Part shown: positions 15,819 through 50,040 of the stretch, one piece after another
Position numbering within the stretch: position 1 is the stretch's first letter
How the letters are laid out: the number at the start of each line of letters is the position of its first letter
DNA from: Argyresthia goedartella
Lineage: Eukaryota; Arthropoda; Insecta; Lepidoptera; Argyresthiidae
DNA: 64,000 nucleotides
Direction of reading: 5' to 3'
NCBI GenBank assembly: GCA_949825045.1
Contig: OX463813.1
Coordinates: 5,890,001 to 5,954,000 of the forward strand
Position numbers and translations under genes: made by a program
The notes under the pieces: model-generated
The model's database searches: none
What the model saw: the letters and a program-made list of their open reading frames with translations, nothing else
Told to the model about the DNA's origin: nothing

Positions 15819-16271
15819 TTAAAAAAAAACATTTATTTTAACCTAAAAAGAACATCTCGTCATTTAATTAATTATGAAAACAATTTGACAAACAAACTAA
15901 CAAAGGAACACAATCGACACATAAACTAAAGAAAAACACTAGAAAGGGTTCGCCAAAACGATATCAGATCACACCGGCGTCTCGTAGTATGTCCGCGCGC
16001 AGCGACGGTTGGCGAAGGAAAAGAGACCCGGGGTTTTTTTTTTTTGTTGGAGGGGAAAAAAATGGAATTACCCATGCCCAGGAGTCAGACCTCCCTGCTA
16101 TGTCCGGGTCCCCACATATTGAGCGGGCATCAGCTCGTGTGGTATACGGACTAAAAACAACCCCTTTGTTTTTAGTCCGTATACCACACGAGCTGATGCC
16201 CGCTTAATAAGAGAGACCCGGGTAGGCTCCGCGCTGGCTTTTATACCCGCGGTGGCACCTCATCCCTTACA
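15819..16271 (-). repeat. 3' LTR of minus-strand gypsy element G1
   Basis: 15819-16032 is a direct repeat of 20375-20587, and the part right of the insert (16212-16246) matches 22293-22326. On the minus strand it begins TGTAAGGGATGAGG (16271 leftwards) after a purine-rich tract, carries TATAAAAGCC about 25 bp in, and has an AATAAA near its other end. The exact inner terminus is uncertain. A 179-bp insert lies at 16033-16211. Confidence 0.7.
16033..16211 (-). mobile_element. Short retroposed insert in the G1 3' LTR
   Basis: Flanked by an 11-bp duplication AGAGACCCGGG (16022-16032 and 16212-16222). It starts with a poly-T run (a poly-A tail on the minus strand) and contains an inverted repeat: gcgggcatcagctcgtgtgg before and ccacacgagctgatgcccgc after a short loop. 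No ORF. Its tail-side junction is at the same LTR nucleotide as the LINE in the other LTR. Confidence 0.75.
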
Positions 16272-16284
16272 CGGCCTCTCCTGA

Positions 16285-16482
16285 CTATGCGTCGCCCCCG
16301 ACGGCATCTGACAGATCTGGCAGGCTGTCTCTCGTAACACCAGATGGTCCAGCTGCTTGATGTAGCTCTGCAATCCCGTCATGGGCGGTCGGCGAGCTCA
16401 CTGTGGGATTATCTTGATGGCTGGCAATGGTATCATCCACCGTAGAATCGTCATCTGTAATTCGAGGGACACATGAGAACAT
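16285..16482 (-). pseudogene. G1 pol C-terminal tail
   Basis: An acidic, Ser/Thr-rich peptide ending SGVTRDSLPDLSDAVGGDA and a stop 14 bp before the LTR start. Its position suits the end of a gypsy polyprotein. It is separated from the integrase core by the 16483-17023 segment. Confidence 0.5.
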
Positions 16483-17023
16483 TGTTTACAATTTATTAGG
16501 CTCTGCCTATTTCTTACATTCATCTATCTCTCAAGGCCTCCTTTCAGCAACCAAACACAACGGTCTATTGATTCATAAAACACCAATATACTTTCTTAGT
16601 ATTTCATGAATTATTGTTATCACTTAGCTAGCACACATCTCAATCTCATTGTACAACACACATTTTAGTTATCTTTCTCATGGATCCTTGTCATTCGTCA
16701 CGCAGATTCACGCTATCATGCAGGGCAAACATCCCGCAGTTTGTTTGCCGGTGGGTACGTCCCGCAGTCCGTCCTCTACATGAACAATAGACACATGTGT
16801 AGGGCGAGCATCCCGCAGTCTACTCGCCTACAGGTACGTCCCGCAGTCCGTCCTCTATACATGGGTGGCAAGGCCATTCTTCGTGGGGCTGGTCAGGCAC
16901 CCCGCAGTTTGCCTGACGTAGAATGTCCCGTAGTCCGTCTACTGCCGCACTCGTTAGACACCCCGCAGTTTGTCTAACATAGAACATCCCGCAGTCTGTT
17001 CTATCAACAGAGTACCAGTGCAC
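16483..17023. other. Non-coding segment interrupting G1 pol, carrying the hairpin array
   Basis: Lies where the second half of integrase should be. The left ~240 bp is plain AT-rich sequence; the right ~290 bp is the hairpin array. Reading frames here do not resemble integrase, so this is either an insertion with a deletion or a replaced segment. Confidence 0.6.
16724..17004. repeat. Tandem array of eight hairpins with constant loop and variable stems
   Basis: Each unit has a loop close to YCCCGCAGTY flanked by inverted arms that differ between units: GGCAAAC/GTTTGCC (16724-16749), GTAG(G)GCGAG/CTCGCCTAC (16799-16831), GTCAGGCA/TGCCTGAC (16892-16917), GTAGA/TCTAC (16918-16942), GTTAGACA/TGTCTAAC (16953-16978) and ATAGAACA/TGTTCTAT (16979-17004). 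Two weaker units (16754-16774 and 16833-16853) share GGTACG/CGTCC with a bulge. Hairpins come in abutting pairs separated by 10-40 bp. No family recognised. Confidence 0.9.
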
Positions 17024-17971
17024 TCACGAGAGGAGTGTGAACTTTGTAAAAGCGTCTACCACTAGGAGTACGAACTTGTAGCCATTAGACTCCGGGAGAG
17101 GACCCAATGCATCAAGGTGAATTACTGAGAAAGTTGTATCTGGCTTTTCCCATGAGGTTATAAACTGGTGTGGAGCCCTAGGTACCCGTTTTTTTTGAGA
17201 GGCATACGAGACAGTGATCGAGGTACTTCCTAACGAACTGTCGTAATCCTGGGAACCAAAATTGACGTAATATGAGGTCAACAGTTTTTTCGTATCCTAC
17301 GTGATCATGTTCGTCGTGAAAAACGCGTAACAGGCTAAGTCGATGGCCTCGAGGGATGTAACATAGAAGTCTAGGTTTTTGCTCGCCCACAACAGTATAC
17401 TTGTAGTATAGGAGGTCGTTTTGTTGAATGTAACGATTTGGGTCTAAGTTGCCGTCGTTAACGACGTTCGTTGAATAAGGGTGTTGGTCTCCCCGTCTGC
17501 CGCTTGAGCGATTTGAGCCCAATTGCGTGGCCTAGTGATATTGTTGACTTCGCGTGGGGGATTACGGCTCAGATAGTCTGCATGCGACATCATAACACCC
17601 TTACGATACACTATGTCAAAGGTAAAGTCTTGGAGGTAGACCCACCAACGCGCTACCCTCGGGAGCAAATCCTTTTTACGCTCAGTGGATTTGAGGGCAT
17701 TACAAACTGTTATAACTTTTAACTGAATTCCGATTAAGTAGTGTCTGAAGTTCTGTAATGCCTTCACAACCGCTAACGTCTCTAACTTGTATGAGTGATA
17801 GCGAGTTTCTGCTCCTTGCGTTACTTTACTGAAGTACGCAACCACTCTTTTATTGCCGTTATCACGATTTTGCAAGAGGACTGCCCCGTATCCTATACTA
17901 CTTGCATCTGTGTGCACTTCAGTCGGGAGTTTAGGGTCAAAGATCGATAATATGGGTTCGTTTGTTAGCAA
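17024..17971 (-). pseudogene. G1 pol: RNase H and N-terminal integrase
   Basis: RNase H reads VHTDASSIGYGAVLLQ, YHSYKLETLAVVKAL and DIVYRKGVMMSHADYLSR. It is followed by LLCYIPRGHRLSLLRVFHDE, HVGYEKTVDLI and CLVCLSKK (an HHCC-type zinc-binding integrase N-terminus). The start of the integrase core is FSVIHLDALGPLPESNGYKF and VVDAFTKFTLL. A frameshift falls near 17200 and the core stops at 17024, so the second catalytic Asp and Glu are missing. Confidence 0.88.
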
Positions 17972-18119
17972 AGCAATGATTTCTTGGCGGACCTTTTTGT
18001 TCCGGACCCCATTTGAATGCGACGTCCTTTTTGGTGAGACGGGAAATGCACAGTGTCCTAGATGCGTATCCCTCTATGTATTTACGGAAATATCCGGCTA
18101 AACCTAGGAACTGCCTGAC

Positions 18120-19235
18120 TTACTTGACACTGGCTGGTAAAGGTGAGTCTACTATTGCCTTGATTTTATGTGGGCTTGGCTTGACCTGACCCTGACTGAT
18201 GATACGGCCTAGGTATTCAACCTCGGTGGTTAAGAACACGCACTTTCGTAGGTTTATCGAAAATCCCACCTCGGTTAGAGTTGTCAGTACTTCAGGCAGC
18301 AAATGAATGGCCTCCTCTATCGTACTGCTCATGATTAGCATGTCGTCTATGTAGAACAGGACCTTCCCGACGTCAATGAACTTCTTAAGGGTCTTATTTA
18401 TGATTCTTTGATAGACAATTGGCGAGTTAGATAGGCCATAGGGCATTTTTAAGTATTCGTAGTGACCTTCCGGGGTCACAAATCCCGTGCGATGGATTGA
18501 CGCTGGATCGATCCTGATCTGATGAAACCCGGTCACCATATCGAGCGATGAGTACCGTGTTATGTTCGTGTCACCTAACCGGTCGATATGATCATCTATG
18601 AGGGGGAGCGGGTACCTGTCTTTAACGGTTATTCGGTTGAGTGCACGGTAATCGACGCACACTCAGTCGGAGCCGTCTTTTTTCTTAACTAATATTATTG
18701 GGCTGGAGTATTCCGATTCCGATTCCCTAATGATACCTTTCTCCAAAAGATCGTTGACGATTTCGCGGACTTTAAGTTTCTCGGCTAGTGAAAGTTTGTA
18801 GGGTCGGTAGGCTACAGGTTCGTTACTAGTAAGATTAATATGCATCTCGCCAGTGCTGACAGTAGAAGGGGCGGTTCCAGTTATAAAAAAGTCAGCAAAA
18901 CCGTCAATGACCTGTAAAATGGATTCTCTTTCTACACCCTGAAGAGGCGTTACGATGTCGTCAAGTTTATTGGAGTACATTTTGAAAACATTGGACACTT
19001 TTGTCGTTGAATGCGTGAGGTATTGTTGATCTTTGGTACGGACATATGTTATGCCATCCTTATTTAGGATGTCCGTACCAACTATTATTGGGGTAGACAT
19101 GTAAATTCCTGGTACAACGACAAAATCGGCTTCAATAGAAATATTGCTAAATTCCACTGTAAGTGTTACGTACGACTGTCCTATAATTTCATGGTTACCG
19201 AGTCCCTTCAACGTACAATTGGTAGGTCTTGTCAA
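18120..19235 (-). pseudogene. G1 pol: protease end and reverse transcriptase
   Basis: The 18663-19235 part contains a protease-like IIVGTDIL block, then the RT lead-in KGIIRESESEYSSPIILVKK. A stop at 18660 follows KKDGSD where the family has DGSWRFCVDYR. RT continues as CVDYRALNRITVKDRYPLPL, GFHQIRID, LKMPYGLSNSP and catalytic FYIDDMLI, then YLGRIISQGQVKP. A second stop (about 18120) ends it before RNase H. Confidence 0.92.
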
Positions 19236-20374: not shown

Positions 20375-20896
20375 TTAAAAAAAAACATTTATTTAAACCA
20401 TAAAAAATATCTCGTCATTTAATTAATTATGAAAACAATTTGACAAACAAACTAACAAAGGAACACAATCGACACATAAACTAAAGAAAAACACTAGAAA
20501 AGGTTCACCAAAACGATATCAGATCACACCAGCGTCTCGTAGTATGTCCGCGTGCAGCGACGGTTGGCGAAGGAAAAGAGACCCGGGCTTGGTGATCTTC
20601 TTACACCCCTTCCAGGGTGCGGGGTTGCGGTCCCGGGGCAATGGCCCCCTTCCGCGGAGTCTTCCGCTGGCCGTGACTACGGCCAGGTCATTGGGTGGCT
20701 GAGGTGTTCTTCGGGTTGTGTGGCCTCAATCCAGTGGTGCTGCCGGCTCGGCAACCAGGTCTCGGTGTAGGCGGCGACGGTCAGGCGGGCGCGCGTGGTA
20801 TGGCGCCAGGTCTCGCACGAGCGGGTGTTGAGAGCCATCCGCTCGTGCGAACATATTCGTTGCTAGCCTCTGGACGAACTTGTCCAGTGACTCCAA

Positions 20897-22171: not shown

Positions 22172-22326
22172 TGCTGCTACGTGTTCGGCGTCGTCGGTGG
22201 GGTTCGGCTTGAACTGCCTCTCCAGGCATTCGGCGAAAATTTCAGCTCGGTCTTTTGCTCTGAATCTCGGGAAGCCGTGAGAGAGAAGGAAAAGAGACCC
22301 GGGTAGGCTCCGCGCTGGCTTTTATA

Positions 22327-26731: not shown

Positions 26732-28321
26732 GACTAGTCTAGCGGTGTCTACGTCGGTAAGAGCTCTAATTTTTTTAACTGCGAACGCTGCCGAACTCAG
26801 TCTGTTCGACAATTTATTTATATGAGGATCCCATTGTAGTTTGGCGTCTAAAGTAATGCCCAAAAAGACAGTCGACTGCACAAGGTCCAATCTCTGTCCT
26901 TTTATAAATATGTCTGTAGTTACCGGATTCACATTGGGTAACACGAATTTAATACATTTAGTTTTCTTTTCATTAAGTAAAAAATTGTTAACAGTAAACC
27001 AGTTCACTATACTAGAGATAGCATTGTTTACCTCGTCATAATTTGATTGCTGTCTTTTAACTTTAAATATCAAAGAAGTATCATCGGCAAACAATACTAA
27101 TCCATGTTTTGCTTTAACAAGGTAAGGTAAATCATTAATATATACTAAAAACAAGAAAGGACCAAGAATTGAACCTTGCGGTACGCCCATACTTATTGAA
27201 GACCCAGGTGATCTTTTCCCATTAACATCGACCATCTGAACCCTATCTGTTAGATATGACTCCAGAAGGCCAAGTGCCTGATCTTTTACACCATAATGGC
27301 GTAACTTCCTGACAAGAGTGTCATGATGGACGCAATCAAAAGCCTTGGATAGATCGCAGAAGACACCTATTGCATCCATTGCGTCTTCCCAGGCATCAAA
27401 AATATTGTCGATTAGTTCAACACCAGCATCGGCTGTTGAACGACCCTTTGTGAAACCAAACTGAGCAATATGAATTAAATTATTGAGATAAAAATGACTT
27501 TGAAATTGATTAAGTATGAGTTTTTCAAATATTTTGCTAAGCGTTGGTAGTATCGATATGGGTCTAAAATTGGTGGGGTCTGATGTACTACCAGCTTTGA
27601 ATAAAGGTATAACTTTACTTAGTTTCATCAAGTCAGGAAACACACCATTATCTATACATTGATTAAATATACAACAAAGGTGACGTGCAATACAATCTAC
27701 AATGGAACTAATAATTTTTACTGATAGACCATGGGCGTCAGCTGTCTTTTTCATTTCCAGGGATTTAAACGCTTTTACAATGTCTTCATTATTTACGTGC
27801 CTAAATTTAAAATCTGTTTTACAATCCAAGTTTTGTTTAAGTATAGATTCAGCAGCAGCGGGAGATGAATTTAAAGACTTGGTTGTTGAAACTGGAATGT
27901 CCGTAAAGAAATTTTCGAAAGCTTTTGCTACTTCTAGGTCTGTACTTAGCAATTGATTATCTAACTTAAGCTTGAAGTTATTATGTGTAGCTTTGGCCTT
28001 TCCAGTCTCTCTGTTTATAATTTGCCAAGTCGTTTTCATTACATTGCTACTAGATTCAATTTTGTGTTTAATGAAATTAGATTTAGCTACAGCACAAACG
28101 CGTTTAAACATTTTTGAATAACTACGAACATAATCTAGAAAGGCCGTATTTTTGTTATATGATTTCTCTTCATAGAGTTCATATAATCTTCGTCTGCTCC
28201 TATGAATTCCAACTGTCGCCCAATCACTAAACAAAGCTTTGTTATTAACTTTTATAGTTTTTGATTTAAATACCGTATCATATTCATTTTTGACAAGGTT
28301 AAATACTGAGTTGTACAACAC
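26732..28321 (-). CDS. LINE family D copy 2, reverse transcriptase
   Basis: An open frame of about 530 residues (the 26723-26731 end of the frame is LTR plus duplication). Order: linker SDWATVGIHRSRRRLYELYE; fingers FRPISILPTLSKIFEKLILN; QFGFTKGRSTADAGVELIDN; motif A GVFCDLSKAFDCVHHDTLV; motif B GVPQGSILGPFLFLVYINDL; catalytic VLFADDTSLIF; and VFLGITLDAKLQWDPHINKL. No stops, so this is a young copy. A plausible source of RT in trans, but its C-terminus is severed by N1. Confidence 0.94.
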
Positions 28322-48237: not shown

Positions 48238-49277
48238 ATGACTGAAGATAAGAATACAAGCGAGTCGCTTCCTCTGAATAATACAAGCGAGTCCTCCTTA
48301 TGCTGAATAATCCAAGTACGAGTAAAACCACCGTAATTACAATGTCGTCAATTGATTTAAACATTTTAATTAAATTTGTGCCTAAATTCGATGGCACTAG
48401 GGAAAAACTTAATGCATTCCTGAATAACTGTACAAATGCTATTAAATTAGCATCTTTATCGCAGCAAGATGTGCTCTTTAGATACATACTAAGTCAATTA
48501 GAAGGGCGCGCTGATGCCGCGTGCTCTATTAAAGAGTTCGAAAACTGGACTCAATTAGAACAGTTTTTAAAAGCCCAGTTCGGTGTATGTAAACACTACG
48601 TTCATTTATTGTCAGATTTACAGGATTGCCGACAAAGTAATGAGACTGTCAACCAATTCGCTCTGCGTTTAGAGTCTTGTCTGGCTCAGTTGTTGACTGA
48701 AATCAACATTAGCATTCCCACTAAAAAGAAAGGCGAATTGGCTGGCATGCTCGCAGCAATAAGAGACCTTGCTATGTATATATTTGTGATAGGATTAAAA
48801 CCTAAGCTTTCTATGGTTGTAAGATGTCAAAATCCGAAAACCCTGAACGAAGCTATTAATCTAGCCGTTTCTGAAGAGAAGTTACTTTAAAGTGTTTTCA
48901 ATAGGGGTCATGCCGCAAATGGTCCCCACACTCAGATTCGTTCACCGTGGCAGAAAAAGAAAGAGGATCATTTTAAACCACAGGTCCATGCTATGTCCAC
49001 TTCCACTGCGTCTCCACAAAGAGCGTCCTCTTCAAAGAATTATGATTCCCAAAATCTTTCTTGCAAATATTGCAAATCAATTGGTGACAGTATTGACCAA
49101 TGTATAAAGTTAGCTCATAAAAAGAAGAATGAAAACGCTTCTTCCAAGAATCCTAGAGCCTCTGTCCATTATGCCGGTGAAGACACCACCGACAACGCGT
49201 CATGTCAAAATGACAATGACATCAATCAGTCTAACGACTGTACTGACGATGATGATTGCAATTGCGATTTAAACTAA
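48238..49277 (+). pseudogene. E1 gag
   Basis: An ATG at 48238 gives a short frame ending after SESSLC. A shifted frame at 48300-48890 encodes a capsid-like domain (IKFVPKFDGTREKLNAFLNN, WTQLEQFLKAQFG, VNQFALRLESCL). Downstream, CKYCKSIGDSIDQC looks like a zinc knuckle lacking the usual His, followed by an acidic tail. Two frameshifts. Typical order for insect gypsy gag. Confidence 0.85.
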
Positions 49278-49344
49278 AACCGGTCCCGAGTAGACGTCGC
49301 ACGGGATCTGCAAATATACAAGCCGGCGTCTTAAACTTTAAAAA

Positions 49345-49790
49345 CACCGAGTCTAACACTGCGTCCAAAACTGAGTCTAACACTGCGCCCAACACTGCGT
49401 CACACACTGAGTCTAACACTGCGTCCAACACTGAGTCTAACACTGCGTCCAACACTGCGTCACACACTGAGTCCAACACTGCATCATCACACACTGAGTC
49501 CAACACTGCGTCACACACTGAGTCTAACACTGCGTCCGACACTGCGTCACACACTGAGTCTAACACTGCGCCCAACACTGCGTAACACACTGAGCCTAAC
49601 ACTGCGTCCAACACTGAGTCTAACACTGCGTCCGACACTGCGTCACACACTGAGTCCAACACTGCGTCAAACACTGAGTTCACCACTGCGTCACACACTG
49701 AGTCGAACACTGAGTCCCATACTAAGTCCAATACCAAGTCACACACTAAACACAACACTGCGTCAACCACTGCGTCCCACACCAAGACCA
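49345..49790 (+). repeat. Minisatellite (12-bp units) in the gag-pol junction
   Basis: Roughly 35 units of the aacactgcgtcc / cacactgagtct type, coding Asn-Thr-Ala-Ser and His-Thr-Glu-Ser tetrapeptides in the + frame until a stop near 49585. The antisense strand also has a long open frame, an artefact of the repeat. Confidence 0.93.
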
Positions 49791-50040
49791 CTGACCCAAA
49801 CATCTTTGAGATTTCGTCTAACACCTCGAAAAGATACCTACCTCACGTCTCGTTGAGAACAAAATCGTCCAAGCGAAAACTCTTGTTTTTGGTCGGTTAC
49901 TGGCCCATCCTTCAGTCTCATCAAGAAAAGTTCTATAGACTCCATGCCAGATTTAACGAAGAAAGTAACTAAATTCAAAGGCATTGATAATGTTGAATCA
50001 TCGACAGCGTTAGGTCACTTTCAATAAGAAATGTTCCCTG

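Follow-up and report, generated by a model that had tools for sequence, protein, structure and literature searches.

Retroviral packaging signals (psi, e.g. that of murine leukaemia virus) comprise several stem-loops with a shared loop motif, are intronic and occur only in unspliced genomic RNA; the known ones sit near the 5′ end. Constitutive transport elements of the Mason-Pfizer type and the RNA transport element are structured, lie near the 3′ end and are found in RNA that leaves the nucleus unspliced. The Su(Hw) insulator of gypsy is a case of repeated short sites in an LTR element. The hairpin array described here, located in a 64,000-nucleotide stretch of Argyresthia goedartella DNA (hereafter, the window), is similar to psi in that stem-loops with a shared loop lie within an intron and would be limited to unspliced RNA, but differs from it in the number of copies (up to eight or more), in the loop, in its location near the 3′ end of pol instead of the 5′ leader, and in being known from sequence. 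Compared to the constitutive and RNA transport elements, it consists of many independent short hairpins with variable stems and a different motif, whereas the Su(Hw) insulator differs from it in being made up of DNA sites without covarying flanks.

In the LTR retrotransposon BARE, the RNA pool that is packaged differs from the spliced one, and a parasitic subfamily uses the particles of its partner (PMC3735527). BARE is similar to the element analyzed here in being an LTR retrotransposon with spliced RNA; however, BARE splicing favours Gag-only RNA, and its abstract describes no hairpin array (PMC3735527). The LTR element Cer1/CERV must export intron-containing genomic RNA, and an element-encoded protein made from spliced RNA does so; here too, in contrast to the present element, the abstract describes no array (PMC10309623). 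In yeast Ty3, RNA packaging relies on untranslated regions or POL sequences, so that a 3′ location is not unheard of (PMC4974528). A search of open-licence papers found no report of an array of the kind described below.

Eight hairpins with a constant loop and variable arms

An earlier note, made from the letters of the window, had placed eight units with one loop and complementary arms at 16724..17004. All eight were found there, as minus-strand hairpins in which the loop is constant and the arms differ in matched pairs: each unit's own arms together form 50 of 64 possible Watson-Crick pairs, whereas foreign arms average 3.5 of 8, and 6 of 40,320 re-dealings of the arms reach 50. The loop given in the note, YCCCGCAGTY, is indeed constant, but the relevant strand is the minus strand, so that the loop is RACUGCGGGR. 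In the minus-strand RNA, the eight loops conform to R-A-C-U-N-C-G-G-G-R, with UGCG in seven units and UACG in one (16926-16935); a C(UNCG)G cap is present in all eight (seven UGCG, one UACG). The seven exact occurrences of YCCCGCAGTY and the one with a single change (TCCCGTAGTC, 16926) all fall inside 265 bases, and the entire window contains 16 loop matches with at most one mismatch, compared to 5.7 expected. The sole change in the loop core, that in u6, hits the N of UNCG, a coincidence with random odds of one in eight. The units are as follows.

16724..16749, minus strand: hairpin u1, 8 bp, loop AACTGCGGGA
16752..16777, minus strand: hairpin u2, weak, 5 bp with a bulge, loop GACTGCGGGA
16799..16832, minus strand: hairpin u3, core 16803-16828, stem extended, loop GACTGCGGGA
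16831..16856, minus strand: hairpin u4, weak, a near-copy of u2
16892..16917, minus strand: hairpin u5, 8 bp, loop AACTGCGGGG
16918..16942, minus strand: hairpin u6, weak, one base lost, loop GACTACGGGA
16953..16978, minus strand: hairpin u7, 8 bp, loop AACTGCGGGG
16979..17004, minus strand: hairpin u8, 8 bp, loop GACTGCGGGA, adjoining u7

Five stems are strong (u1, u3, u5, u7 and u8) and three are weak (u2, u4 and u6). The ungapped 8-bp arms are perfect in u1, u5, u7 and u8, and u3 has seven Watson-Crick pairs and one G.U; u2 and u4 resemble each other closely, with 5-6 bp and a bulge, and u6 is short of one base. At the position of u6, most of the listed paralogs have GACTGCGGGA, compared to GACTACGGGA in the window.

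RNA folding of the region is biased towards the minus strand (z = −4.6, with none of 200 shuffles as stable; for the plus strand, z = −1.2, 22 of 200). When folded in a 621-nt context, u1, u3, u5, u7 and u8 form as drawn with high probability; u2 is predicted to pair with u4 (hairpin probability 0.05), and u6 forms only partly. A covariance model built from the eight units recovers these units in the window at E values between 1e-8 and 0.0014 (next match, E = 0.059), and the region has no Rfam match by gathering score or at E ≤ 1. Kissing between loops was considered, given that CUGCGG self-pairs with two G.U and that u4 and u2 are paired in the whole-region fold; the CUACGG of u6 breaks this pairing, and kissing is not relied on here.

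Covariation of the arms

In the alignment of the eight units, which are related by duplication so that covariation counts do not represent independent events, 85.9% of the cells are paired and 16 are double-changed, compared to 68.6% and 7.2, respectively, in shuffled alignments (0 of 500 reach either value); slid registers give 21-47% paired. Coarser measures were not decisive, with two-sided changes in 7 pairs vs 4.9 (reached by 39 of 500 shuffles) and 11 further pair types vs 11.8 (413 of 500). When only the strong units u1, u3, u5 and u7 were included, all 36 cells were paired and two-sided changes were found in five of the nine pairs (3.0 when shuffled; 20 of 500 reach the observed value); the pair-type count in this four-unit test does not stand out (458 of 500 shuffles reach it).

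The dimers of the array are duplicates of each other, 16719-16778 and 16798-16857 being 82% identical and 16889-16938 and 16950-16999 80% identical, so the arms have diverged after ordinary duplication while pairing was kept. The suggestion in the earlier note that the arms had been replaced rather than duplicated is thus not borne out.

Covariation also bears on whether the array acts as DNA, that is, as sites for a DNA-binding protein resembling those of Su(Hw) in gypsy, with dyad symmetry arising by chance or for the sake of a dimer. The repeated constant core within a gypsy-group element, the sharing of the module by several elements and the folding of the minus strand as single-stranded DNA, which is better than that of shuffles (z = −2.7), are all compatible with such sites. 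However, a DNA site needs no matched changes in otherwise free flanks, RNA folding is strand-biased, and the array lies inside an intron of pol in the sense direction (see below), so we regard this explanation as very improbable.

The host element

The earlier note knew of no family resembling the array. Rather than being free-standing, the array is part of the pol-terminal intron of an LTR retrotransposon, a broken Ty3/gypsy element on the sense strand of which the array lies. The element has LTRs, a polypurine tract and the order reverse transcriptase, RNase H, integrase, the first two domains being recognized by Pfam and the third by comparison with relatives.

15819..16271, minus strand: 3′ LTR, starting with TGTAAGGG, interrupted by other DNA, with a foldback in it, at about 16036-16208 (LTR comparison)
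16275..16282, minus strand: polypurine tract AGGAGAGG preceding the 3′ LTR (by eye)
16285..16454, minus strand: last exon of pol, ending ...LPDLSDAVGGDA and stop (from sequence)
16455..17027, minus strand: phase-1 intron of pol, 573 nt, which holds the array; donor GTGAGT (17027-17022), acceptor TTACAG with its end at 16455
17028..17029, no strand: junction of a deletion of about 750 bp, the rest of integrase being gone (748-753 bp in the 6 paralogs measured)
17029..17443, minus strand: integrase, its 5′ part with a frameshift, covering the zinc-binding part and the beginning of the core (comparison with relatives)
17444..18073, minus strand: RNase H (Pfam)
18120..18662, minus strand: reverse transcriptase (Pfam)
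20375..20590, minus strand: part of the 5′ LTR, 95% identical to 15819-16035

The 5′ LTR has a 37-nt continuation at 22290-22326, past an inserted non-LTR element. The foldback in the DNA that interrupts the 3′ LTR (16104-16222) has 57-nt arms (88%) and a 5-nt spacer, and like text (TTAGTCCGTATACCACACGAGCTGATGCCCGCT) is found in locus L330. Elsewhere in the window, a non-LTR reverse transcriptase fragment is present twice, at 1-814 and 27510-28320, with 99% identity across 814 bp, and 49231-49856 is a long low-complexity repeat with an open frame on either strand (DAVLDSVCDAV / TLSLTLRPTLR).

Of the 29 other loci read, 15 have a pol that matches the window as far as 17029 or close to it, and the six paralogs measured have 748-753 bp of extra integrase between that point and the array. 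The copy in the window has therefore suffered a deletion, and the proper place of the array is 3′ of integrase. The additional integrase of about 750 bp before the array in the paralogs also rules out a nested insertion of the array into integrase, and an initial placement in the 3′ untranslated region was superseded by the intron. The deletion stops one base short of the splice donor, and the end of the removed piece, TTTTTTGAG, resembles a splice acceptor; removal by cryptic splicing was considered, but the removed piece starts with AT, not GT, in the six copies read, which makes an ordinary deletion likelier.

The named protein relatives of the element come from Parnassius (3), Pieris (1), the gall wasp Belonocnema (1) and the fungus Smittium (1), and the Ty3/gypsy clade that carries the array is probably lepidopteran; no relative turned up when viral contigs were scanned with its RNase H piece. 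The host genome (G000, 1.1 Gb) contains at least 61 matches to the array region (the best 40 of 67 candidates were scored), the copy numbers given here being lower bounds for this one genome. Family A, to which the window copy belongs, has moved recently, with one A copy having LTRs that are 99.6% identical.

The intron at the end of pol and its retention

The intron is located right before the last exon of pol, and the first hairpin lies about 20 nt from the splice donor. In family A, the exon ends with TTTTTTGAGC, followed by GTGAGT and the array, and then by AATTACAG and the exon encoding ...LPDLSDAVGGDA. The exon end is TTTTTTGAGC/GTGAGT and the acceptor side TTGATTCACAG in family B, and the corresponding sequences in family C are TTTTTTGAAC/GTGAGT and TTTTTATAG. 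In all three families, the GTGAGT donor and an in-frame acceptor give phase 1 and leave the tail open; the donor is damaged in some A copies (TTGAGT in L278 and L300, ATGAGT in L292). A separate open frame of 65 aa, which comes from a different sequence source, matches the last exon at 86%.

From a protein search in which the pol end of family C was the query and the best 150 of 1290 candidates were scored, 40 places were read downstream, in stretches that were 901 nt long for 20 places and 301 nt long for the other 20. The intron is kept in 39 of these 40 sampled pol ends, to which the count of intron losses pertains. A GT[G/A]AG donor is present in 38 of them, L368 has the mutated donor GTGGGT with the intron sequence kept, and L348 shows a precise loss: exon continues straight into exon, to the base, and the array is absent too. 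L348 and L347 agree in 59 of the 60 bases compared at the 5′ exon end; further on, the last exon of L348 contains an indel. L348 looks like the expected product of reverse-transcribed spliced RNA, which shows that the intron can apparently be spliced; copies of such origin appear to be few in the sample of 40. The GT-AG ends, the kept phase, the in-frame exon join and the intron-less copy are, at the sequence level, those of a spliceosomal intron. Among the 19 long stretches with the intron, a clear in-frame acceptor is found in 10 (L347, L349, L352, L358, L359 and L362-L366) and a doubtful one in 3 (L350, L353 and L355); in 6, there is none within reach, and some of these stretches may end too early.

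Related arrays with the same and with different loops

Family C is more distant and has other arms with the same loop core as A. Its array consists of up to three hairpins (three in L330 and L349, and likewise in L347), with single changes in some copies.

Family C hairpin h1: CGTCGACA.CACTGCGGGG.TGTCGACA
Family C hairpin h2, with a bulge: AGAGGACG.TACTGCGGGA.CGATCCTA
Family C hairpin h3: CGGTAACA.TACTGCGGGA.TGTTACCC

There are three hairpins in L342, with the loop of h1 damaged, and two in L341; 13 shorter stretches of the family C type (L367-L378 and L380) have three loop cores in 8 cases and two in 5. When the five strong A units were combined with C h1 and h3, each from two copies (A u2, u4, u6 and C h2 being left out), 90.0% of the cells were paired compared to 66.6% in shuffled alignments, and 24 were double-changed compared to 7.2, with transversions at pairs 3 and 4. 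By the coarser measures, 2 of 500 shuffles (pairs) and 104 of 500 (pair types) reach the observed values. The outer loop positions form C-G and U-A pairs in C and have G.A, A.G or A.A facing each other in A; given this variation between the families, the constant part is A-C-U-N-C-G-G-G.

In L350, L351 and L379, ACTGCGAG takes the place of the loop core, and the arms of L351, GTCAGGTA/TACCTGAC, represent a paired change compared to u5. A strict C(UNCG)G cap fails in L350 and L351 (ACTGCGAG), in h1 of L330 (ATTGCGGG) and in unit E3 of family E (TGTTGTGAAC). Family E (L358, L359, L362, L363 and L366) carries, in the same intron, six units with a different constant loop, (T)TGTTGCGAAC, and arms such as GTTAAGCA/TGCTTAAC, AAAAGACA/TGTCTTTT and GGGGGACA/TGTCTCTC. 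In L358, with one doubtful seventh unit left out, 97.9% of the cells are paired compared to 80.4% when shuffled, and 10 are double-changed compared to 3.5; 13 of 500 shuffles (pairs) and 98 of 500 (pair types) reach the observed coarser measures. Permutation of the E arms with the doubtful unit included gave a weaker result (54 of 5040 reach the observed value). A 330-nt part of the family E intron folds at z = −5.8, and its minimum-energy fold pairs some units together. Across families, the minimum-energy folds of whole arrays miss some units, namely, u2 with u4, L330 h2 and h3, and several E units.

In family F (L356, L357 and L364), the arms CACGTTA/TAATGTG and CGTGAAA/TTTCGCG surround TGCGA[AC]CTTTAA[AG]GAGCCTC, with weaker units in between. 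Altogether, a constant-loop array is found in 12 of the 20 long stretches, the intron itself is missing from L348, and the remaining 7 of the 19 stretches with the intron have no recognized array (L352, L353, L354, L355, L360, L361 and L365). In L381-L383, which are of the L352 type, the donor is kept and the loop core is absent; together with the 7 stretches, these cases indicate that the array is not required for intron retention in every family. The same intron contains long hairpins in 187-nt tandem units in L353 and L355, where the arms lack this kind of variation, and 57-nt tandem units in L360.

Among the 59 distinct hairpins from A, B, C and diverged copies, there are 121 double-changed cells compared to 52 when shuffled, with 101 of 500 (pairs) and 230 of 500 (pair types) shuffles reaching the coarser measures; these counts come from a 96-row alignment fitted to the model and so lean towards structure. 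Scans of viral and bacterial collections with two- and three-loop patterns gave no hairpin-array loci among the matches listed. In 276 viral and bacterial records with 465 loop matches, five matches, in three records, had at least 6 of 8 Watson-Crick arm pairs, none of them as part of an array.

Covariation within the array of the window, in comparison with the distant family C and in family E with its other loop supports constraint on the hairpin structure, in agreement with the selection envisaged in the earlier note; the other possibility that the note had raised, a mechanism that writes hairpins, is not needed, though conceivable.

The main rival to a packaging role (see Discussion) is an element of export or retention, without any part in packaging: a host protein bound to the hairpins would export the unspliced RNA, or the folded array would slow splicing. 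The array is intronic, sense-stranded, multi-loop and near the donor, and the intron is kept in 39 of 40 pol ends, all of which would fit, as would the requirement of Cer1 unspliced RNA for an export factor (PMC10309623). However, where families differ in their loops they would require different readers, for which an element-encoded partner is a better fit than one host export factor; we consider control of export or splicing possible but rather unlikely.

Apparent exchange, amplification and conservation of the array

Identity between A and the B elements (L295, L297, L298 and others) is 95-98% across the array and about 40-100 nt beside it, and the remainder of the A and B elements does not align at the DNA level; the simplest reading is that arrays have been exchanged between A and B elements. 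Beside this array, the B elements have a second, diverged one that comes with an exon end and donor of its own, located downstream in L295, L297 and L298 and upstream in L281 and L282. L310, an A copy, and L307, a B copy, both have ATCAGAAGTGGGATA just inside the 5′ LTR, as if one replication machinery served both. At L280/L302 (G000:C31:13181024-13182612), the array has grown in tandem steps of 166 nt to 31 loop motifs. The genome contains at least 214 loop pairs compared to at least 36 for the reversed pattern, a count that includes an unrelated 30-bp satellite on C5. This tandem satellite (G000:C5:26601189-26602000) contains ACTGCGGG and, by its layout, is unrelated to the hairpins.

Between A and diverged copies, ungapped identity in the array is 91% for L301, 88% for L300 and L304, and 89% for L305, compared to 83-84% (L301) and 82-83% (L305) in pol, 73-77% in the rest of the intron and 73-76% in the last exon (L301). 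Between two A subfamilies, it is 95.7% in the array, 93.0% in pol, 87.5% in the last exon and 86.8% in the rest of the intron. Of the four segments compared, the array is thus the most conserved, ahead of the coding sequence. With gaps counted, the contrast for the array is larger, though some copies stop inside the intron.

Both amplification and conservation are relevant to the possibility that the arms were written rather than selected, with template switching in hairpins during reverse transcription copying arm from arm, to no function. Perfect arms beside decayed units, and the active duplication evident in the growth to 31 loop motifs at the C31 locus, would be accounted for in this manner. 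However, template switching would invert loops too, and none was found on the opposite strand (30 loci, both strands, with strands having at least two matches reported); furthermore, the array is better conserved than pol and the other segments compared, and at least two families have different constant loops. Such an origin of the arms therefore appears improbable.

Discussion

The intron of pol holds an array of hairpins that has been retained through transposition. We put at roughly even chances the reading that this array is a cis-acting RNA element of a Ty3/gypsy clade that marks unspliced genomic RNA for packaging. We rank packaging first on account of several features of the array, which lies in an intron and on the sense strand, is repeated, has a constant loop, is specific to families and can apparently be exchanged between elements. 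Its intronic location would confine it to unspliced genomic RNA, as is the case for packaging signals; its position, 3′ of integrase, is not at the 5′ end where such signals lie. In a typical unit, a helix of about 8 bp would be followed by an A.G mismatch and closed by a C(UNCG)G cap. A cap that is kept on a helix free to change while pairing would be expected if a protein reads the loops on a multi-copy hairpin scaffold. The Gag of the element itself or a host factor would bind the loops and select unspliced RNA for packaging and reverse transcription, and such selection would account for the survival of the intron through most rounds of transposition. We infer loop binding, packaging and the identity of the reader from these features. 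Against the packaging reading, L348 apparently shows that spliced RNA can be copied.

A broader and more tentative proposal is that of a clade-wide, fast-evolving module for RNA recognition. Under this proposal, the constant-loop, variable-stem array that each family has of its own in this intron would serve as a loop code for its own Gag; arrays would be exchangeable, as between A and B, and amplifiable, as in the case of the 31 loop motifs, and a swappable array would set both packaging specificity and intron retention.

That an intron should survive in an element that transposes through RNA would be paradoxical if unspliced RNA were not singled out, and the array is a concrete and testable candidate for the feature that singles it out. 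Natural controls are at hand in the families with other loops or none, the intron-less copy, the amplified array and the apparent exchange between families. The array could thus show how retrotransposons outside yeast choose their genomic RNA.
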